Below, piece by piece: positions 5,755 to 42,445 of a DNA stretch of 64,000 nucleotides. The position numbers and the translations under genes are program-made. The stretch covers positions 111,898,730 to 111,962,729 of the forward strand of contig CM071571.1 in NCBI GenBank assembly GCA_036426205.1, read 5' to 3'. Below the pieces are notes generated by a model. That model made no database searches and had not been told where the DNA came from. It saw nothing but the letters and a program-made list of their open reading frames with translations. This DNA comes from Ascaphus truei (Eukaryota; Chordata; Amphibia; Anura; Ascaphidae). The first letter of the stretch is position 1, and the number at the start of each line of letters is the position of its first letter.

Positions 5755-5778
5755 TCCTATAAAAACATAAGAAACTTT

Positions 5779-6900
<1,122 letters not shown>

Positions 6901-8792: not shown

Positions 8793-9661
8793 GGATTGTT
8801 GTAATGATTCCAAAGCTTTAATGATCAAGGATGAGATCTTAATTAGTTCCTATGGTGTCTATTTAATGAGTTTTCAAAAATTAGTTTTCATCAATGTGTG
8901 TACAAAACAGAAAACTACTGCAAAGTAATGTCATTGGGATGAAAAAATGAGTATTGGTGACTTCTACGAAACAATTATTGTCTTTGAGTAGTCTATTGTA
9001 AGATAATGATTAATTCAGTGCCTTCCATGCGAAGAGGATACAAATATTTAATTCATTTCACAAACCATCAAATCAATACTCCCTGGCTTATTGTAAATGT
9101 TTAAAAGATAGACAGTAGAGGTGTTTTTCCTGTTAACCCTATCATCAGAAGACAGAGTGTTCTTTGGCAAGAGGTTAAAATCAATATGTTTGATGAAAGC
9201 AAGTTCAAGCTTGTATTTAAGAGCCTTTTGGCCATGTGTAATACTTTCAGAAATTACATGTAACAATAATGATGATAAGGATTATAGCTGTTGGGTATGC
9301 AATGAGATAATACCTCCTAAGGAGCCAAATTGATTGAACAGAATCTCTGCTTTAAATATGCTGTTAGGGTTGAAGCTTAAAGTTGACTGGTTAGTGTTTC
9401 CTTTGAAAATATTTTCAAAATATTGCGTGTTCTGTGTTGCGTTATTAAGGACCTTTTGATTCATGTGGACATGGTATGCTACAAACATATTAAAAGATAC
9501 AGCTAGCAGTGCCTTTGAAATAATTTCCTTGTTATCATTTTCCATTTACTTGAATTGGTAAATTGTTTCCATATATATCCTATTTGAGGCATAAATACAT
9601 AATTTACCTACATTGCTGAAAGTTGTGGTCTGGTGGGGGAATAACTTAATCTGCCCACTAA

Positions 9662-14866: not shown

Positions 14867-16600
14867 ACATAGTTACATAGTAGATGAGGTTGAAAAAAGA
14901 CGTAGGTCCATAAAGTTCAACCTATGCTAAATTTAGACAACAGATACTTTATCCTATATCTATACTTACTTATTGATCCAGAGGAAGGCAAACAAAAAAC
15001 CCCATTAAGGGGAAAAATTAATTCCTTCCTGACTCCAAGAATTGGCAATCGGATTAATCCCTGGATCAACATCCTTCCCATGTATACTTATTTGGTATAT
15101 CCCTGTATACCTTTCCCATCTAAAAAGATGTCAAGCCTTTTTTTTAACAAATCTATTGTATCTGCCATCACAGTCTCCATGGGTAATGAATTCCACATTT
15201 TAACTGCCCTCACTGTAAAGAACCCTTTCCTTTGTTGCTGGTGAAATTTCCTTTCCTCCAACCTTATGGGATGGCCCCGAGTCCTTTGTACTGCCCGTGG
15301 GATGAAAAGTTCTTTTGAAAGCTCCTTGTGTTGTCCCTAAATATATTTGTATATAGTTATCATATCCCCTCTTAGACGCCTCTTTTCTAATGTAAATAAA
15401 TCTAATTTAGCTAGCCTCTCCTCATAATTTAGAACGTCCATCCCCTTTATTAATTCGGTGGCTCTTCTCTGCACTCTCTCTAGTTCCATAATGTCTTTTC
15501 TTAGGATTGGTGCCCAAAATTGTACTCCATATTCAAGGTGTTGTCTTACTAATACTTTGTAAAGGGGCATAATTATGTTTACTTCCCTTCCATCCATTGC
15601 GCGTTTGATCCAAGATAAGATCTTGTTTGCCTTTGCAGCTACTGCATGACATTGGGCACTATTGCTAAGGCTGCTGTCTACAAACACTCCTAAATCCTTC
15701 TCCATCAAGGATTCCCCCAATATATCTCCATTTAATTTGTAAATCGCCTTTTCATTCTTGCATCCCAAATGCATAACCTTACATTTATCTGTATTCAACC
15801 TCATCTGCCATTTACCTGCCCACGTTTCCAGTCTTTCCAAGTTCTTCTGAAGAGAAATTACATCCTGCTCTGATTCTATTACCTTACACAATTTAGTATC
15901 ATTAGCAAAGATGGAGACTTTGCTCTCGATCCCAACCTCAAAGTCATTAATAAACAAGTTAAAAAGCAGGGGTCCCAGTACCGATCCCTGAGGTACTCCA
16001 CTCACAACTTTAGCCAAACCGGAAAAAGTTCCATTTATGACAACCCTCTGTTGTCTGTCCTTTAACCAGTTTTCAATCCAGGTGCATATATTATTACTGA
16101 GTCCAATTTTCTTTATTTTGTACACCAACCTCTTGTGTGAAACCATATCAAAAGCCTTTGCAAAATCTAAGTAGACCACATCAACTGCATTACCCTGGTC
16201 TAATTTCCTACTTACCTCCTCAAAGAAACAAATAAGGTTAGTTTGGCAAGATCTATCCTTCATAAATCCATTCTGACTATTAATAATAATTTTGTTTTCC
16301 ATTAGGTATTCCTGAATTTTATCCCGTATTAAACCTTCAAGTAGTTTCCCTACTATTGAAGTCAGGCTTACAGGTCTGTAATTTCCAGCTTGTGATCTAG
16401 CTCCCTTTTTAAATATAGGCACCACATCTGCTTTAAGCCAATCTTGTGGTACTGAGCCTGTGGAAATGGAGTCCTTGAATATTAAATATAATGGTTTTGC
16501 TATTACTGAGCTTAACTCCTTGAGAACTCTTGGATGTATGCCATCGGGGCCAGGTGCCTTATTTACTTTAATTTTGGGGACCTCTGGTCTTAAAGATCAA
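14867..16600 (-). mobile_element. CR1-type LINE, 5' truncated
   Basis: The minus strand holds a partial RT (see the pseudogene entry) followed by a 3' UTR that ends in an 8-bp repeat tail (ACATAGTT direct units at 14867-14882), a CR1-style 3' end. Sequence homologous to the 3' part lies in plus orientation at 3.08-3.6 kb, and a shorter piece lies at 61.07-61.2 kb. The 5' break is near 16590. Confidence 0.85.
15337..16590 (-). pseudogene. CR1 reverse transcriptase (partial, active site changed)
   Basis: A long open frame reads from APGPDGIHPRVLKELSSVIA (near 16570) through NYRPVSLTSIVGKLLE, YLDFAKAFDMVSHKRL, VPQGSVLGPLLFNLFIND to the C-terminal LERVQRRATELI and EERLAKLDLFTLEKRRLRGD. This is the RT and thumb order of CR1 ORF2. 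The catalytic F/YADD box reads FANDTKL, so the first aspartate is replaced by asparagine and the enzyme should be inactive. The endonuclease half is missing because of 5' truncation. More than 410 codons stay open, so the copy is fairly young. Confidence 0.85.
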
Positions 16601-20240: not shown

Positions 20241-20266
20241 CTCTTTTTCACCAGCTGCTCAATATA

Positions 20267-20332
20267 ACTGCATTAGATAGTGAGGCATTTAAAGTGAGGT
20301 TTTTAAGTGATAAATACAGTTAGACTACAGTT
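20267..20332 (+). repeat. 66-bp direct repeat, left copy
   Basis: Begins ACTGCATTAGATAGTGAGGC and ends CTACAGTT. The same 66 bp recur at 21976-22041, at the 5' part of the 2A LINE. The two copies bracket the ribozyme array. Confidence 0.9.
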
Positions 20333-21011
20333 AATATATATATATATTATATGCAAATATAGCTGTGTGCTCATCTGCATGTCTTAGGCAGGTCTGCAAC
20401 CCTGCCTTTCCCCATTATCACCCAGCATACAGCACTTCCACTGCAGCAAGGGATTCTGGGAAATGACATGCAAATGAGCACACAGTGTCACTTTTTGCCT
20501 CAATAACCATTTTTAACATGGTTTCCTGTAGGCTTAAGCTTGCTGCATGGTCACAGCTTTGAGCACAGCCAGGGTTAAGGTGCATACCCAGAAAACCACC
20601 CACAGACAGCTGTTTCGACCTTGATGGGTCTCATCAGAGTGGGGTTGATTTTACTTGGAATGCAATAGAGGCTATGGGATAGGCTAAACCATAATACTGA
20701 GTTAAGTTATGGTGAGTAAAAAAAGTGACAAAAACCCTCCACAGGAAAGCAAATATGCAAATATTGCTGTGTGCTCATCTGCATGTCTTAGGCAGGTCTG
20801 CAACCCTGCCTTTCCCCATTATCACCCAGCATACAGCACTTTCACTGCAGCAAGGGATTCTGGGAAATGACATGCAAATGAGCACACAGTGTCACTTTTT
20901 GCCTCAATAACCATTTTTACAATGGTTCCCTATAGGCTTAAGCTTGCTGCATGGTCACAGCTTTGAGCACAGCCAGGGTTAAGGTGCATACCCAGAAAAA
21001 CACCCACAGAC
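20333..21011 (-). mobile_element. Ribozyme-bearing tandem array, minus arm (404-bp monomer)
   Basis: Read on the minus strand, about 1.7 monomers run head to tail. The landmark CTGCAGCAAGG recurs at 20441 and 20845, a 404-bp period. Each full monomer contains GGGTGATAATGGGGAAAGGC, GTTGCAGACCTGC, GAGCACACAG and one hammerhead (here 20595-20651). The 5' end of this arm (21009-21011) coincides with the GUC cleavage triplet. There is no protein-coding frame. Small tandem non-coding monomers with hammerheads are the definition of retrozymes and of the newt hammerhead satellite; the class call is inferred. Confidence 0.75.
20595..20651 (-). ncRNA. Hammerhead ribozyme (canonical core)
   Basis: Minus strand: CUGAUGA (20637-20631), stem II GACC/GGUC (20630-20627 with 20620-20617, loop CAUCAA), GAAAC (20616-20612), AGCU, then the cleavage triplet GUC (20607-20605). 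ACAGCUGU is self-complementary, so stem III is a 2-bp stem with a small loop, or an 8-bp dimer as in PLE-type hammerheads. Stem I: GUGGG (20603-20599) pairs with CCCAC (20643-20639) after one U.U mismatch. All invariant core residues (C3 U4 G5 A6, G8 A9, G12 A13 A14, A15.1/U16.1) are present. Confidence 0.85.
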
Positions 21012-21550
21012 ACTTGCTGCAGTGGAAGTGCTGTATTCTGGGTGATAATGGGGAAAGGCAGGGTTGCAGACCTGCTTAAGACATGCAGATGAGCACACAG
21101 CTATATTTGCATATTTGCATTCCTGTGGAGGGTTTTTGTCACTCTTTTTACTCACCATAACTTAACTCAGTATTATGGTTTAGCCTATCCCATAGCCTCT
21201 CTTGCATTCCCAGTAAAATCAACCCCACACTGATGAGACCCATCAAGGTTGCGAAAACAGCTGTCTGTGGGTGGTTTTCGGGTATGCACTTAACCCTGGC
21301 TGTGCTCAAAGCTGTGACCATGCAGCAAGCTTAAGCCTATAGGGAACCATGTTAAAAATGGTTATTGGCAAAAGTGCACGTGTGGCTTATTTGCATGTCA
21401 TTTCCAGAATCCTTGCTGCAGTGAAGTGCTGTATGCTGGGTGATAATGGGGAAAGGCAGGGTTGCAGACCTGCTAAGACATGACGATGAGCACACAGCTA
21501 TATTGCATATTTGCTTTCCTGGGAGGGGTTGTCACTTTTTTAAGCACCAT
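21012..21550 (+). mobile_element. Ribozyme-bearing tandem array, plus arm
   Basis: The same monomer runs in the opposite direction. CTTGCTGCAGTG recurs at 21013 and 21412, a 399-bp period. It contains one hammerhead (21221-21275) and several small deletions relative to the minus arm. The two arms form a large imperfect inverted repeat with the break at about 21011. Confidence 0.75.
21221..21275 (+). ncRNA. Hammerhead ribozyme (damaged by small insertions)
   Basis: CUGAUGA (21230-21236), GACC-CAUCAA-GGUU, then GC GAAAAC instead of C GAAAC, AGCU and GUC (21263-21265). Stem I is perfect for 6 bp: CCCACA (21224-21229) with UGUGGG (21266-21271). Extra bases between stem II and GAAA, plus one extra A, probably abolish or weaken cleavage. 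Confidence 0.75.
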
Positions 21551-21700
21551 AACTAACTCGAGTATATGTTATAGATATATAGAGAGTAGAGAGAATAATA
21601 GTATATAGATAGAGAGATATATATAGAATCATAGATATAAGTATTAATATATTTAATTATATTTAAACAATCAATATACTCACTTTCTTCATGCAAGACC
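21551..21700. repeat. AT/AGAT-rich low-complexity tract
   Basis: ATATAGAGAGTAGAGAG-type sequence lies between the plus arm and the LINE 5' region. Confidence 0.7.
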
Positions 21701-21934: not shown

Positions 21935-22041
21935 TAGCTGTATAAAACCAACATCTTTCCTGCATCTTTGCAGGAACTGCATTAGATAGTGAGGCATTTA
22001 AAGTGAGGTTTTTAAGTGATAAATACAGTTAGACTACAGTT
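21935..22041 (+). promoter_or_regulatory. Possible LINE promoter region with TATA-like box
   Basis: TGTATAAAACC at about 21940 lies upstream of TTGCAGG and of the 66-bp repeat (21976-22041), about 420 bp before the 2A ORF. Whether it drives the LINE is inferred from position only. Confidence 0.35.
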
Positions 22042-22362
22042 GACTAGAGGTGACTGGGGACTGGATTTACTGCACACTATTTTACTCAAGACAACAAACG
22101 GTAAGCTATTCAGATCACACTATGATCCCATGCTTGTTAGCCTGCATAGTTTAACCCCCCAACCCTTTACAACTTCTTTCACTGCAGCCTCTCCCAAAAC
22201 TGACTGCACAAAACACTGAAACCCTGAATTGACCCTAGCATTTCAATGCAGCAAAACACTTGACAAGGTACAGGCTCACCCCTGCTGTTTAGTCTGCACA
22301 CACTCACTCTGCTCACAACAACTCCTTGCAGCACTGCCTACCTCTGGCATCATGAACCTGCT

Positions 22363-24144
22363 ATGTCTTTTAACATTTTTCTTTCTCCTGGCCTCATGGA
22401 GATGTTACTCCCTCTATCCACTACAAACTCCTCCATCCTGGCCCACACCCAACATCACCATACACCCTGGACTACTCAGAAGCCTTGCATTATCTATCAG
22501 GAATGTTGGTGGAGAACTCTAAAAACCAGCACACCAACCACTGCTCACTCTAATGGAAAACACCACAAATTTACAACTTGCAAACTACCCAAATTTCTAC
22601 TCATACTATTACTCTCTCTAGCAGGTGATGTTGAAACTAACCCAGGTCCTCCCATTTCAGCTCTGTCCCATGCCCCTGAGAATTCCACCTTTAAATTCCA
22701 AAAAGGGCTATCTGTCGCCCATATAAACATCCGTAGCCTGCTGCCCAAACTGGATGAACTAAGGGCATGGTGCCTTATGCATAAACCCAAAGCCATCGTT
22801 CTTACAGAAACATGGCTATCCCCTAAAACCCCTGATGCAAATATTGCCATTCAGGGATACTCCATTTTTAAGAGAGATAGGTCAAAGAGAGGAGATGGGG
22901 TGTTATTTTATATTGCAGACACCTTACAATTTACACTGTTAAATTGCCCACCAAGTCCACCCTCTTTTGAAACTCTAGTTGGCAAAATCTGCCTCCCCTT
23001 TTCTAAGCCCATCTTGCTTGCTGGCATCTACCGCCCCCCTAAAGCCCCTCTACAATCCTTGACTGATATCACCCAATTTCTTGGCTCCATTTCCTCTCTG
23101 AATGAGAAGAGTGAGCTGCTAGTTCTAGGGGATTTCAACTTCAATTGGCTTGACCCTAAAAACCACAAAATCCAGATACAACTCAAGTCACTTAACCTAT
23201 CGCAACTCATTTCCCAACCCACACGGATAAACCTGAAGTCGCATAACAATTCCTTGCTAGACTGGATTCTCTTCTCAAACCCCAGCAGAATCCAATCCTC
23301 TGGCATCCTTCCTGATATTTTCAGTGACCATGCAATAGTGTACTGTGTAAGGAAAATTAAACCGCCCCATTCAAGCCCTAAAGTTCTCCTCACTAAAACA
23401 TTCAAAAACTTTAACCCACAACAGTTTCTGGATGACCTTACCAACTGCCCATGGCACAGAATCGATTTAATTCCCGACCCTGATTCTGCGCTCGACTATT
23501 TCCAATCCGAGTTCTTAAAACTCTGCGATACCCATGCTCCACTACGCAAAATAAGGGTACGGGGGGCCCACCTTCCGTGGGTTACACCTGACCTTATAGC
23601 ACTCTACCAGTTCAGGGATGCCTTGTGGAAAAGCTACAAAGTAACTGGCACTACCAAGGATCTCAATCACTACAGATGCATGCGGAACATGTGCATAAGG
23701 CAAACAAGGCATGCAAAAGCACAATATTACTCTGACAATCTCCACCAGAATACATCAAACCCAGCTAACTTCTGGAAGGTTATCAACAATATATTCCAGC
23801 CTCCTAACCATCAACAACCAAGTAATATCACTAAGGGGGATATTACTCTGACAAATCCCACTGACATTGCAAATGCATTCAATGATTACTTTGTGGGGTG
23901 TGCCACTAACTTATTAGCGAAACGCAGCACAAACCCCAAACATGAATCTCATCCTGGGAGTACCCCTATAGTCCCACCCCCTCCCAACACTGCCCACAAT
24001 TTTCAATTTAGCCCAGTATCTGAAGAGGAGATTACACAAGCGCTCCTCAAACTAAAACTAAGCAGCCAATGTGGACCGACTTACTACAATCTAGGTTCCT
24101 ACGACTTGGTGCCCCAGCCATTGCCAAACCAATTGCGTCCATAG
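22363..24144 (+). pseudogene. LINE ORF2 N-terminal part: 2A motif plus AP endonuclease
   Basis: 593 open codons. Residues 76-96 are a hydrophobic run ending SLAGDVETNPGP, a canonical D-V/I-E-x-N-P-G-P 2A ribosome-skipping motif, just before the endonuclease. APE-type endonuclease motifs follow in order: HINIRSLLPKLDEL (N122), LTETWLS (E149), GDGVLFYI, LLAGIYRPP, LVLGDFNFNWLDP (GDFN 256-259) and SDHAIVY (321-323). All catalytic positions look intact. A frameshift near 24075-24090 moves the frame; the RT start (ILSAGHIPKTWKTARVVPIF, NYRPISLL) continues in another frame to 24263. Upstream another frame (22351 on) encodes a signal-peptide-like MNLLCLLTFFFLLASW, so the native N-terminus may be frameshifted as well. 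Confidence 0.85.
22585..22650 (+). other. 2A-like ribosome-skipping peptide
   Basis: GDVETNPGP is encoded at 22624-22650 (residues 88-96) behind a leucine-rich stretch. 2A peptides make the ribosome skip the last Gly-Pro bond, releasing the upstream peptide. Their presence near the N-terminus of some APE-type non-LTR elements is established. Activity of this copy is inferred from the motif. Confidence 0.85.
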
Positions 24145-24333: not shown

Positions 24334-25508
24334 GCTAGGAAAAATTAAATCCTTGGAGTTGCCTCCATAGCCATACATAAACAGTATTAAAATCACATTT
24401 ATTTAACATATATACAGTAAACCTTAATTACTAAAACACCACTATGTGGCTCCAGGAGGGCACAGAGAGAAAGGTGTGTCGTCGGTGAGTGCTTATAAAC
24501 TCATCTGGACAATGGGAGACTCTAATTAAATTCAGGGCAGTGTATACATAATGTATAATCCTTAATGAACTCCCTACAACAGTTCACTGTATGTTACCAG
24601 TTCTGCGTATACCCTATATATTATGAATGGGAGTTCATGAGGTTGGAGGGTTGCTGCTGTACAGCTTGTCCCCTATGAGACTATATAGTGCTTGTGTGAT
24701 GTCACCCTAGGTAATATGCAAGTAACAATGTGTATGTACCCCCAAACACTGTCACTCTGTGATCATGTATCAGACATACGGGGTACCATATTAGTGATGG
24801 TATGTTATTGCAAATTGGTGACTTGAGGCGCGCCGTCAGGTCTCAGAGTTACCAGTCAGGGCGTCACTATGAGTAACGTGGCGCCGCCACCACTCTGAAT
24901 AAGTGCGTCTTGATACCTGGAATTAGTGCTAGGAAAAATAATCCTTGGAGTTGCCTCCATAGCCATACATAAACAGTATTAAAATCACATTTATTTAACA
25001 TATATACAGTAAACCTTAATTACTAAAACACCACTATGTGGCTCCAGGAGGGCACAGAGAGAAAGGTGTGTTCGGTGAGTGCTTAAAATCATTGGACAAT
25101 GGGAGACTCTAATTAAATTCAGGGCAGTGTAACATAATGTATAATCCTTAATGAACCTCCTACAACAGTTCACTGTATGTTACCAGTTCTGCGTATACCC
25201 TATATATTATGAATGGGAGTTCATGAGGTTGGAGGGTTGTGCTGTACAGCTTGTCCCTATGAGACTATTAGTGCTTGTGTGATGTCACCCTAGGTAATAT
25301 GCAAGTAACAATGGTATGTACCCCCAAACACTGTCACTCTGTGATCATGTATCAGACATACGGGGTACCATATTAGTGATGGTATGTTATGCAAATTGGT
25401 GACTTGAGGCGCGCCGTCAGGTCTCAGAGTTACCAGTCAGGGCGTCACTATGAGTAACGTGGCGCCGCCACCACTCTGAATAAGTGCGTCTTGATACCTG
25501 GAATTAGT
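24334..25508. repeat. Tandem direct duplication (594-bp unit)
   Basis: GCTAGGAAAAA begins both units (24334 and 24928) and TTGATACCTGGAATTAGT ends both. The copies differ only by small indels, so the duplication is recent. No gene is seen in the unit. Confidence 0.9.
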
Positions 25509-25920: not shown

Positions 25921-26014
25921 NNNNNNNNNNNNNNNNNNNNNNNNNNNNNNNNNNNNNNNNNNNNNNNNNNNNNNNNNNNNNNNNNNNNNNNNNNNNNNNN
26001 NNNNNNNNNNNNNN
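25921..26014. other. Assembly gap (94 N)
   Basis: An undetermined run lies at the edge of the palindrome. The size may be arbitrary. The open frame that crosses it is meaningless. Confidence 1.
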
Positions 26015-29390: not shown

Positions 29391-29639
29391 TTGTCGATCC
29401 CAAGCTATTTTAAGTACTTTGCTGTAACAGCCCTACAACTTCTTTAAGGCTATTACATACATCTTCTATTGTTTTTTATTATGTACACTATTTGCTCACA
29501 TTTCACCTGAGCCGCCGAACCATCTATATTTAAACACAACGTCCTGATCTTTCTTTTGTATGCTTATTATTTAGTATATTATGTGATGTATAACCCACAC
29601 ATTATATAGTTATGGCAGGTAGAAAAGGGATCCATGTTA

Positions 29640-29815
29640 TAATGGACAAGAAGCAGAGAGGGACACTGAGTGCTCGGTTGCATGTCATTTCCTAGAATCT
29701 CTGGCTGCAGTGGAAGCACTGTATGCTAAGAAATAATGGTGAAAAGCAGGGTTGCAGAACCTGTCTGAGACATGTGAATGTGCTCACAAGTGATATTTTT
29801 ATTTGCCGTGATGTA
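29640..29815 (+). repeat. Partial copy of the ribozyme-bearing monomer
   Basis: GCATGTCATTTCCTAGAATC, GGCTGCAGTGGAAGCACTGT and GCAGGGTTGCAGA match the 404-bp monomer of 20.3-21.5 kb. The hammerhead part is absent. It lies just after the PLE 3' repeat. Confidence 0.75.
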
Positions 29816-31294: not shown

Positions 31295-31980
31295 TGATCT
31301 GAGACGTGAATGTGCTCACAAGTGATATTTTTATTTGGTGCACACTGTAAGGGGGAGGGTTTTGTCACTTTTTTACCCACCATAACTTATATCATGTGTG
31401 GTTGAAATCTATCCCAACTTCACATTGCAAAGCCAGTATAATCAGCCTCACACAGTCAAAACAGTCTCTGTGGGTAGGTTTACTGGCTATGCACTTCTTT
31501 AACCCAGGCTGTGCTGAAAAGCATTGTAATATGGCAGGCATAAACTTCTAGGAGTCCATGTTAAAATGGATATGAAGTAAAAAAAAAAGTGATTGTGGCA
31601 CGAACAAGATACGGCCATCTATGGGGCCGGCCTCAGTCAGTGCGTACGCGCACATGTTCAAGCGCGAGTGGCGCTACTACATTTTGAAAAGTCAAAAAAT
31701 TTGACTTTTAGTGCGGTAGCTGAGCCACGTCATGGCAGCTGTTCAGCCAATGAGGCTGCACCAGACGTGTGATGTCATTATCCACGCCACCACCTAGCCT
31801 CCCCGTCGCGAGTGATCTGAAGTCCACAGATCCTTCGGCTGAAGGCCACGAGCGCCACCTGGTGCTCCATTGCTCGCGTGTACTCACTGGGCCCGTAACC
31901 TAGAGGTAATGGGGAAATGCAGGGTTGCAGACCTTTCTGAGATTATTTTTTTATCTGCTGTACAGTGATTTGCACTTTTC
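31295..31980 (+). repeat. Divergent ribozyme-type monomer, core deleted, with insertion
   Basis: TTTTGTCACTTTTTTACCCA and CACCATAACTTA match the monomer. At 31450-31485 the sequence goes from AATCAGCCTCACA straight to CAGTCAAAACAGTCTCTGTG, so CUGAUGA and stem II are lost while the stem III/stem I 3' strand remains. The monomer resumes at about 31905 (TAATGGGGAAATGCAGGGTT). Between, 31600-31900 is a GC-rich insertion of unknown class. Confidence 0.7.
31600..31905. repeat. GC-rich insertion of unknown class
   Basis: The segment is rich in GCGCGAG/CTCGCG words and has an internal AAAAGTCAAAAAATTTGACTTTT-type inverted repeat around 31678-31700. It interrupts the ribozyme-type monomer. No terminal repeats could be assigned. 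Confidence 0.45.
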
Positions 31981-34935: not shown

Positions 34936-36355
34936 AAATAAAATGTTCAACTTACCCCTGCCATCATGAAGGGTGTCCTCATCTGCATAATCCAGGTCCA
35001 TGTCCTCTGATGCCAGCAAGAATACATGAATGCTTGTTTTTAGTACATTGTAGGATTGGTTAGCATTTTAAATTAATTATTTGTTATTTTGGCTAGTGGT
35101 TTAAATTAATTAATTGTTTTCTTGTCTAGTGGTTAAATTATTTGTTTTATTGGCTAGTGGTTTTATTTGTTTCATAGTTTGCTTGGATAGTTGTTTATTT
35201 TTTTGGAATAACATAATTGTCATAATTTTTCTATTTTGGTGATAGATCATTATTTGTGATGTGTACCATTAGGCTATTTAGTTCTTTTATTGTTGGGGTA
35301 TTTAGGTGGTTGTGTATTTTTGGCATTAATTATTTTTATTAGGTTGACCATTGAGTGATATAGTGGCTTATCATGCTGATATTATATGGGTATGATATAC
35401 CACTGTGCCAATTAATGGGAACAGGGTGGGTATAGTGGGTCTGGGGTGGGTGGTTAGGCCTCCCGGGTGGGTAGCGTGAGATGGGGGTTAACCCCTTAAT
35501 GACTACAGCGGTTATTAACCGCTAAGGTTATTAAGGGGTTAAGGGGCATTAGATTGTATTTTTTTCTGGCAACGGAGGACATGGACCTGGAGTATGCTGA
35601 TGAGGACACCCTTCATGATGGCAGGGGTAAGTTGAACATTTTATTAATAAAATGTTCAACTTACCCCTGCCATCATGAAGGGTGTCCTCATCTGCATAAT
35701 CCAGGTCCATGTCCTCTGATGCCAGCAAGAATACATGAATGCTTGTTTTTAGTACATTGTAGGATTGGTTAGCATTTTAAATTAATTATTTGTTATTTTG
35801 GCTAGTGGTTTAAATTAATTAATTGTTTTCTTGTCTAGTGGTTAAATTATTTGTTTTATTGGCTAGTGGTTTTATTTGTTTCATAGTTTGCTTGGATAGT
35901 TGTTTATTTTTTTGGAATAACATAATTGTCATAATTTTTCTATTTTGGTGATAGATCATTATTTGTGATGTGTACCATTAGGCTATTTAGTTCTTTTATT
36001 GTTGGGGTATTTAGGTGGTTGTGTATTTTTGGCATTAATTATTTTTATTAGGTTGACCATTGAGTGATATAGTGGCTTATCATGCTGATATTATATGGGT
36101 ATGATATACCACTGTGCCAATTAATGGGAACAGGGTGGGTATAGTGGGTCTGGGGTGGGTGGTTAGGCCTCCCGGGTGGGTAGCGTGAGATGGGGGTTAA
36201 CCCCTTAATGACTACAGCGGTTATTAACCGCTAAGGTTATTAAGGGGTTAAGGGGCATTAGATTGTATTTTTTTCTGGCAACGGAGGACATGGACCTGGA
36301 GTATGCTGATGAGGACACCCTTCATGATGGCAGGGGTAAGTTGAACATTTTATTT
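34936..36355. repeat. 709-bp tandem duplication, near identical
   Basis: The unit occurs twice (about 34936-35645 and 35646-36355) with essentially no differences seen. Each unit is itself ended by about 78-bp inverted repeats (AAAATGTTCAACTTACCCCT and complement). Each also holds a short palindrome around AGCGGTTATTAACCGCT with AACCCCTTAAT outside it. The open frame at 35554 is the inverted arm and not a gene. Confidence 0.92.
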
Positions 36356-37344: not shown

Positions 37345-38640
37345 TGTGGAAACATGTCATGCCATGATCTCGGAGGACCTCAGAAAAGCAGTTATTAATT
37401 CTCACAGTGTAGAAAAGGTTACAAAACCTTTTTTAAGTACTTGGGACTCCACCAGTCCACTGTCCGACAGATAGTATACAAATGGAGAAAGTTCACGACC
37501 ACAGTCACTCTAACCAGGAGCGGTCATCCTACCAAAATATTTCCAAGAACAAATCGAGAAATAATCCATGAAGTTACAAAGAACCCCAGAATAACATCCA
37601 AGGATCTGCAGGCCACTCTGGCCTTGGCTAATGTAAGTGTTCATTACTCAACTATCAGAAAAAGACTGAATGAGAATGGTGTAAACCAGGAGGAAACCAT
37701 CACTCTCTAAAAAGAATATTACTGCCCATTTGAAGTTCGCCAAAGAGCACATACTGTACAGTAGATGATCCACAATACTTCTGGAACAATAGTCTCTGGA
37801 CAGACAAGTCAAAGGTATAACTTTTTGGCCTCAATGAGAAATGTTATATTTGGCGAAAACCAAACACTGCCGTTTGAACAGAAGAACCTCATCCCAAACG
37901 GCAAGCATGGTGTTGGGAGTGTGATGGTTTTGGGCTGGTTTGCTGCCTCAGGACCTGGACGGCATGCAATCATAAACATAACCATTAATTTTGTATTGTA
38001 GCAGAAGATTCTAAACAATAATGTCAAGCTATCCATCCGTGAGCTGAAGCAGAAGCGAAAGTGGGTTATGCAGCAAGATAATGATCACAAACATACAAGC
38101 AGATCTACAAAAGAAGTGGTGCAGAACAAAAAATCTGCGTTTTAGAATGGCCTAGTCAAAGTCTGGACCGACACCCCATTGAAATGTTGTGGCAGGACTT
38201 GAAACGAGCTGTCCATGTAGTTTTACACTGTATACATAAACCTTGGCCCTTTGCAGACGCACTTACCAGAATGCCCTCCTATTGTCCCTATATGTCCTTC
38301 CTACCAACCAATTAGATTGTAAGCTCTTTGGAGCAGGGACTCCCTTTCCAAAATGTTACTGTTATGTCTGAAGCACTTCTCCCCTTTATGTGTTATTTAT
38401 ATTATTTGTTATCTATATGATTGTCACGTGTATTACTGCTGTGAAGCTCTATGTACATTTATGGCACTATATAAATAAAGACATACAATACAATGGAAGC
38501 CCTCAAATATCACTGAGTTCCAGCAGTTCTGTAAGAAAGGATTGGCCAACATTCCTCAAAACTGATGTGAGAGACTGACCAGCAGTTATAGGAAATGTTT
38601 AGTTGAAGTCATTGCTGCTCAAGGTGGTGCCACCAGCTAC
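37345..38640 (+). pseudogene. Tc1 transposase pseudogene (copy 2)
   Basis: HTH phrases (GLHQSTVRQIVYKWRKFTTT, RSGHPTKIFPRTN, ITSKDLQATLA, STIRKRLNENGV) lead into catalytic-core parts in other frames: GENQTLPFEQKNLIPNGKHG, SVMVLGWFAASGPGRHA near 37930-37970, and LDRHPIEMLWQDLKRAVH near 38165-38215. An L2 tail then interrupts it. Stops at several places; not functional. Confidence 0.8.
38220..38493 (+). repeat. L2 LINE 3' tail inserted in Tc1 copy 2
   Basis: ATTAGATTGTAAGCTCTTTG through TATATAAATAAAGACATACA matches the tail at 2930 and 6140. The insertion point differs from that in copy 1, so these are independent events. Confidence 0.75.
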
Positions 38641-42342: not shown

Positions 42343-42445
42343 CCATTATCACCTAGCCTATAGCACTTTCAATGGAGCAAGGGATTCTGGGAAATGAAAT
42401 GCAAATGAGCACACATCTTTTGTCTCAAGACCACATTACATGGTG
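42343..42445 (-). repeat. Partial copy of the ribozyme-type monomer
   Basis: CATTATCACCTAGCCTATAG, GCAAGGGATTCTGGGAAATG and CAAATGAGCACACA match the minus-arm monomer of 20.36-20.5 kb. A second (TG)n tract follows at 42486. No ribozyme core. Confidence 0.75.

Follow-up and report, generated by a model that had tools for sequence, protein, structure and literature searches.

A two-armed array of a ~400-bp hammerhead repeat in the frog Ascaphus truei resembles a truncated amphibian retrozyme and carries a candidate snRNA-type promoter layout

What kind of element is a short, non-coding, hammerhead-bearing repeat in a frog genome, and how might it be transcribed and multiplied? This question is raised by a 64,000-nucleotide stretch of Ascaphus truei DNA (GCA_036426205.1, contig CM071571.1, positions 111,898,730 to 111,962,729; hereafter the window), in which an initial annotation made from the letters alone had proposed an array of retrozymes or of units akin to the newt hammerhead satellite. 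We put a probability of roughly 0.6 on the reading that the locus is a truncated, rearranged copy of a retrozyme from an amphibian, probably a frog. Such an element, ~400 bp long, non-coding and non-autonomous, would work like newt satellite 2. The class first proposed remains the best fit, given a type I hammerhead whose stem III is palindromic, a unit of ~400 bp, the absence of a long open reading frame, additional copies and a self-paired predicted circle, but the locus is less intact than it had been described.

A repeat search together with blastn resolved 20349-21574 into two opposed arms of one repeat (Table 1). Within the minus arm, copies of 260 nt lie 404 apart and are 97% identical; shorter stretches of the plus arm repeat at spacings of 398, 396 and 392. 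Between the arms, the longest inverted match is 95% identical over 247 nt, with 138 nt separating its halves, and unit identity by blastn is 97.3% within the minus arm, 93.9% across the arms and 89% within the plus arm. The 404-bp unit is non-coding, with a GC content of 0.443 and no stop-free stretch in the array longer than 70 codons. These results agree with the earlier description, in which a single non-coding monomer of roughly 400 bp makes up both opposed arms. The limits given at the time (20333..21550) needed correction: the array itself stands, but 20333-20348 is an AT repeat and arm homology extends from 20349 to about 21574. The proposed period of 404 is that of the minus arm; the plus arm, for which 399 had been given, shows the three spacings above.

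Table 1 Features of the array, its hammerheads and promoter-like motifs, and related copies in the window.
Feature	Position	Strand	Details
Minus arm	20349..21012	-	~1.6 units, 404-bp period, read 21012 to 20349; repeat search, blastn
Plus arm	21013..21574 (right end approximate)	+	~1.4 units at 392-398-bp spacing, opposite in orientation to minus arm
Hairpin-like block, 123 bp	20363..20485	.	closed by 21-nt inverted repeat 20363-20383 / 20465-20485, 95%
Type I hammerhead	20599..20643	-	CUGAUGA 20637-20631, 4-bp stem II, GAAA, palindromic stem III ACAGCUGU, GUC
Plus-arm hammerhead remnant	21214..21285	+	six stem I pairs CCCACA/UGUGGG, extra core bases
Octamer ATTTGCAT, DSE-like	20872..20879	-	3 nt upstream of Staf/SPH-like box
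Staf/ZNF143 (SPH)-like box ATTTCCCAGAATCCCTTGC	20850..20868	-	motif search
Second octamer ATTTGCAT (20762-20755), then one-base variant (20754-20747)	20747..20762	-	motif search
PSE-like box TCACCATAACTTAACTCA	20698..20715	-	start 164 bp downstream of octamer start
Predicted transcription start	20656..20657	-	CA, +1 at 20656, 59 nt after PSE-like start
67-bp exact direct repeat, left copy	20266..20332	+	partner 21975-22041; 16 bp outside left arm end
67-bp exact direct repeat, right copy	21975..22041	+	partner 20266-20332; ~400 bp outside right arm end
Diverged partial copy, 78-79%	29626..29806	+	blastn
Diverged copy, 185/249 unit positions identical	31354..31583	+	PSE-like core kept, hammerhead core lost
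Partial copy, 90-92% to minus-arm units	42343..42415	-	octamer and Staf/SPH-like box intact; ends beside GT microsatellite

The minus-arm hammerhead matches the Rfam model RF00163 (Hammerhead_1) over its full length (minus strand, 20643-20599) at 31.8 bits, with an E-value of 1.6e-5 for the 1.8 kb searched and 5.8e-4 for the 64-kb window. Recognition by a covariance model, which the initial annotation had suggested as a check, is obtained in a permissive search, but the score lies under the Hammerhead_1 gathering score of 34, and an Rfam scan of the window at gathering scores returned 0 matches. In the Rfam alignment the invariant core is complete, as had been claimed, comprising CUGAUGA, GAA and the residues that we take to be A15.1, U16.1 and C17. 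Stem II (GACC/GGUC) carries a six-base loop, stem III is ACAGCUGU, a palindrome between GAA and C17, and stem I consists of five pairs and a U-U mismatch adjoining the core, beyond which the outer strands continue to pair. The closed stem II, the self-complementary ACAGCUGU and the GUC previously read from this strand are all present in the sequence, and cleavage would be expected between 20605 and 20604.

The bare pattern CTGATGA...GAAA occurs three times in the window, once in each arm and once on the minus strand at 9148, where we take it as a chance occurrence. When a 4-bp stem II was also required, the pattern was found once in the window (20637, minus strand) and twice in 200 dinucleotide shuffles. 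An unconstrained fold of the extended minus hammerhead (-18.0) pairs part of the core, and a fold with the core held open (-15.4) forms stems I and II without stem III, so energy folding does not itself favour the hammerhead.

The plus-arm hammerhead has three additional bases at the stem II/GAAA junction, and in Rfam it is matched by HH9 only, at 15.5 bits and an E-value of 2.3 (gathering score 52). Of the two hammerheads first claimed, one per arm, the minus one keeps its core and the plus one is damaged. Each arm holds a single hammerhead and fewer than two units (~1.6 and ~1.4). With two hammerheads in neither arm, the locus alone would be unable to release a monomer, and its transcript would be cut at most once per arm.

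Such damage could mean that the family is a dead dispersed repeat of MITE- or satellite-like kind, with a relic hammerhead that is idle now and a means of spreading, past or present, that lies elsewhere; we consider this unlikely, though it deserves weight. The Rfam score below the cut-off and the damaged plus-arm hammerhead both point that way, and the 21-nt inverted repeat of the hairpin-like block, with 81 nt between its arms, is MITE-like. The minus hammerhead has nonetheless kept every invariant core base, and the high identity among the array units, within and across arms, argues that amplification was fairly recent.

The copies elsewhere in the window bear on the same issue. The dispersed copies previously placed at 29.64, 31.3 and 42.35 kb were recovered at 29.63-29.81, 31.35-31.58 (with a further part at 31.91-31.94) and 42.34-42.42 kb. 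Loss of the hammerhead core from the 31-kb copy would fit a dead repeat, as would the 29-kb copy, which retains only the 123-bp block and its flank. The 31-kb copy also retains CACCATAACTTA, and more unit sequence follows at 31907-31942 after inserted DNA; unit sequence on both sides of its hammerhead part suggests a former tandem state. The DNA that splits this copy (31590-31900) is ~300 bp of unrelated sequence, within which AAATTTTTT forms the middle of a short palindrome. The part-units in the 29-kb and 42-kb copies prompted the idea of a chimaera of two MITEs, which was rejected because in the 31-kb copy unit sequence stands on either side of the hammerhead part. Two pattern scans for a relative in viral contigs returned 0 stretches each.

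A self-paired circle, as the retrozyme reading would have it, is predicted from the minus unit. Treated as a circle, 21007-20604 folds at -149.2 kcal/mol (z = -6.7), whereas 60 shuffles average -110.1 +/- 5.8 kcal/mol, and 67% of the predicted circle is paired. Two control stretches flanking in the window gave z = -1.0 and +0.8, and the plus-arm unit a modest z = -1.96. Good folding is not confined to the hammerhead strand, since the antisense of the minus unit folds well too (z = -4.8).

The two-armed layout might in part be an assembly or sequencing artefact around one real array, for which we see only a rather small chance. The plus arm contains 0 gap columns and 9 mismatches across 21013-21249, and 19 gap or insert columns and 9 mismatches across 21250-21570; sequencing error may contribute to this gap-rich part. 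Elsewhere the window contains a gap of 94 N and a tandem duplication of 709 bp without a single difference, and the array itself is enclosed by the exact 67-bp repeat. A simple fold-back read, however, would not leave the arms unmirrored at their junction, with 138 nt between the 247-nt arms. A retrotransposon pair elsewhere in the window is likewise gap-rich (40 gap columns, 57 mismatches), so gaps need not fault the plus arm, and the remaining copies in the window are independent.

The inverted junction at 21012/21013 lies at most 4 bases from the expected hammerhead cut point of the unit (21009/21008), a proximity that we spotted post hoc and that by our own arithmetic would be a coincidence of about 2% in a 404-bp unit. 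The flanking 67-bp repeat could have arisen as a long target duplication, through an older duplication or from overlap in the assembly; a target duplication is no more than a candidate here, since the copies stand off from where the arms end and a second exact duplication occurs in the window. The search for short target duplications at the ends of the arms was by eye only. TATAAAA and a TTTGCAGG stretch lie directly upstream of the right 67-bp copy, as though this copy were the start of a transcript or exon. The 709-bp duplication (34937-36354; 34937-35645 = 35646-36354) is either recent or an assembly artefact, and a near-perfect 118-bp palindrome (35587-35704, 114 of 118 positions) is centred on its junction. 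Near the assembly gap (N run 25921-26014), 24334-24498 and 24928-25088 form a 97% direct repeat.

Set beside known systems, the frog unit resembles by description both newt satellite 2 and two axolotl retrozymes, Rtz_331 and Rtz_353: all come from amphibians and consist of non-coding units, a few hundred bp long and in tandem, with a type I hammerhead, a weak helix III, a palindromic cap and a likely dimeric mode. It differs from them in length (404 or 392-398 bp versus 330-353 bp) and in the short, truncated, inverted arms of the locus. According to the available text of two papers (PMC7229834, PMC6155905), a palindromic stem III can be shared between two copies in a dimer of the newt and axolotl motifs. 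Animal non-LTR retrozymes were defined by Cervera and de la Pena (2020; PMC7229834), whose available text describes circular RNA and dimeric cleavage in axolotl. The unit length agrees with the 150-450-bp tandem class of metazoan non-LTR retrozymes, but the arms hold only ~1.6 and ~1.4 units. The invertebrate members (coral, mussel) share the type I hammerhead, low GC and a self-paired predicted circle, but their hammerheads are mostly efficient cleavers, as far as the accessible part of PMC7229834 states. Among frogs, Perreault (2011; PMC3088659, in the part available) found Xenopus tropicalis hammerheads apparently associated with multi-copy interspersed repeats, to which the present family is similar, by description, as a frog repeat that is multi-copy and interspersed.

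Hammerheads are also borne by Penelope-like elements (PLEs), in tandem or partial tandem (PMC11167929, partial text), and PLEs are present in frogs (PMC10794172, partial text). It is nevertheless very improbable that the unit is a hammerhead-bearing terminal repeat left by such an element and not a free retrozyme. Unlike the Penelope-like pseudo-LTR hammerheads, the frog unit has no RT/GIY-YIG ORF, for which a tandem period of ~400 bp leaves no room, and its stem III is a palindrome, whereas minimal hammerheads of the PLE kind usually lack non-conserved helix III nucleotides (PMC7761336, in the text available). In the nine ORFs scanned of the 40 listed, Pfam found no GIY-YIG domain, and it found RVT_1 in three, one of them below Pfam's cut-off. 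We take the RVT_1 ORFs of the window to be of CR1/L2 type.

The RT ORF at 15340-16596, presumably of CR1 type, is 63-70% identical to proteins of Xenopus tropicalis and 66-68% to those of Leptobrachium, and 42-57% to those of turtles, birds, lizards and coelacanth, among the best 120 of 7941 proteins; one further listed protein reaches 66%, and the top match by E-value is from a turtle, at 55%. This similarity likely points to a frog host. A 626-codon frame at 22264-24141 encodes an endonuclease domain like those of non-LTR retrotransposons, gave no pointer to the host, with a best protein match of 38% among the best 120 of 134, and contains GDVETNPGP, which we take to resemble a 2A peptide. 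A frame at 5755-6144 contains a Sleeping Beauty-type transposase HTH domain (Pfam).

If the unit belongs to a retrozyme, its transcription has to be accounted for. On the hammerhead strand, the unit appears to carry a layout like that of snRNA genes, with an octamer, a Staf/SPH-like box and a PSE-like box (Table 1); the initial annotation had seen the hammerhead part of this arrangement but overlooked the promoter-like part. The motif search was post hoc, and we take 20850-20868 to be a Staf/ZNF143 (SPH)-like box. In the plus arm, both members of the second octamer pair are exact (21105, 21113). Against the 164 bp of the frog unit, the interval from octamer start to PSE start is 155 bp in chicken 7SK, computed from positions in the available part of PMC2235858, and octamer and PSE are 177 bp apart in buffalo 7SK and 137 bp in buffalo U6, computed likewise from PMC3958870. 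Applying the PSE spacing rule of PMC9758055 gave the predicted start in Table 1, and an alternative CA would place +1 at 20661, 54 nt after the PSE-like start. The predicted +1 would lie directly 5' of the bases that lengthen stem I of the hammerhead by outer pairing. In order and spacing, the motifs fit a candidate snRNA-type promoter.

In 60 shuffles of the window, TTCCCAGAAT never appeared within 8 nt after an octamer, and a PSE core stood 100-200 nt after an octamer once. Singly, both motifs are common, with 14 octamers in the window versus 5.3 per shuffle and 6 PSE cores versus 1.5 per shuffle. When aligned to the human U6-1 PSE (PMC9652321, partial text) in a register chosen by the analyst, the PSE-like box agrees at five of the eight stated positions (-65, -62, -61, -59, -52) and differs at -60, -53 and -51, which makes its 3' half weak and places the fit mainly in its 5' half. 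No TATA box was seen at the usual place in the unit, and T runs occur on the hammerhead strand at 20734 (T5), 20724 (T7), 21000 (T5) and 20595 (T4). Because Pol III should terminate at the T5 and T7 runs and no TATA box was seen, Pol II is the probable polymerase. In this the unit would differ from the schistosome satellite hammerhead repeat, which is also tandem with an internal promoter, but one used by Pol III (as cited in the available text of PMC2220036). A 3' box following the consensus in PMC3499247 is absent from the array, the sole match in the window being at 37872.

The Staf/SPH-like box of the plus arm is broken by gaps. Among the diverged copies, the PSE-like 20-mer is preserved at 16 of 20 positions, a value equalled by 102 of 230 stretches. 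The 29-kb copy keeps the octamer at 6/8 positions (equalled by 136/166) and the Staf/SPH-like box at 16/19 (74/155); the 42-kb copy keeps them at 8/8 (32/93) and 19/19 (4/82), and the last value alone ranks high. Special conservation of the promoter motifs in the diverged copies of the window was thus tested for and not found, and the promoter reading rests on layout and precedent. The precedent is newt satellite 2, where Pol II acts from an snRNA promoter (Coats 1994, cited in the available text of PMC2220036); retrozymes in general seem promoterless, according to the accessible part of a 2020 review (PMC7761336).

From the observed unit, its tandem and inverted layout, the hammerhead core, the order and spacing of the motifs and the predicted fold, we infer the following cycle. 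In intact tandem copies, an internal snRNA-type Pol II promoter (octamer and Staf/SPH-like box as DSE, PSE-like box, no TATA) would start RNA just 5' of the hammerhead, and Pol II would transcribe through successive units. The hammerheads would then cut after GUC to give monomers of ~400 nt, likeliest as dimers, since stem III is too short. A host RNA ligase would seal each monomer into a self-paired circle containing the entire promoter, and the RT of another element would copy this circle for more than one round, yielding tandem DNA in which the promoter again stands ahead of a hammerhead. That the unit works like a retrozyme is better backed than that it is an active retrozyme, because the Rfam score is below the cut-off and the locus lacks two intact hammerheads.

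Hammerhead repeats of frogs have already been published (PMC3088659, in its available part), and the promoter layout in a frog is the new proposal; among the matches listed from the open-licence literature, no title or abstract opening dealt with a frog hammerhead repeat that has a promoter of snRNA type. More speculatively, and with the odds against it at present, amphibian retrozymes may be a lineage common to frogs and salamanders in which snRNA-type promoter and hammerhead form one machine: the PSE would direct RNA synthesis to begin at the ribozyme's 5' edge, the cut monomer would hold the whole upstream promoter, and a circle copied for more than one round would restore that promoter before the next ribozyme. 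As to how animal retrozymes are transcribed, the frog unit and the newt precedent together give a directly testable answer, namely Pol II, SNAPc, Oct-1 and Staf. If this is true, the start would be fixed beside the ribozyme and an upstream promoter could be passed on by way of circular RNA, an answer to the usual loss of the external promoter when a retroelement transposes.
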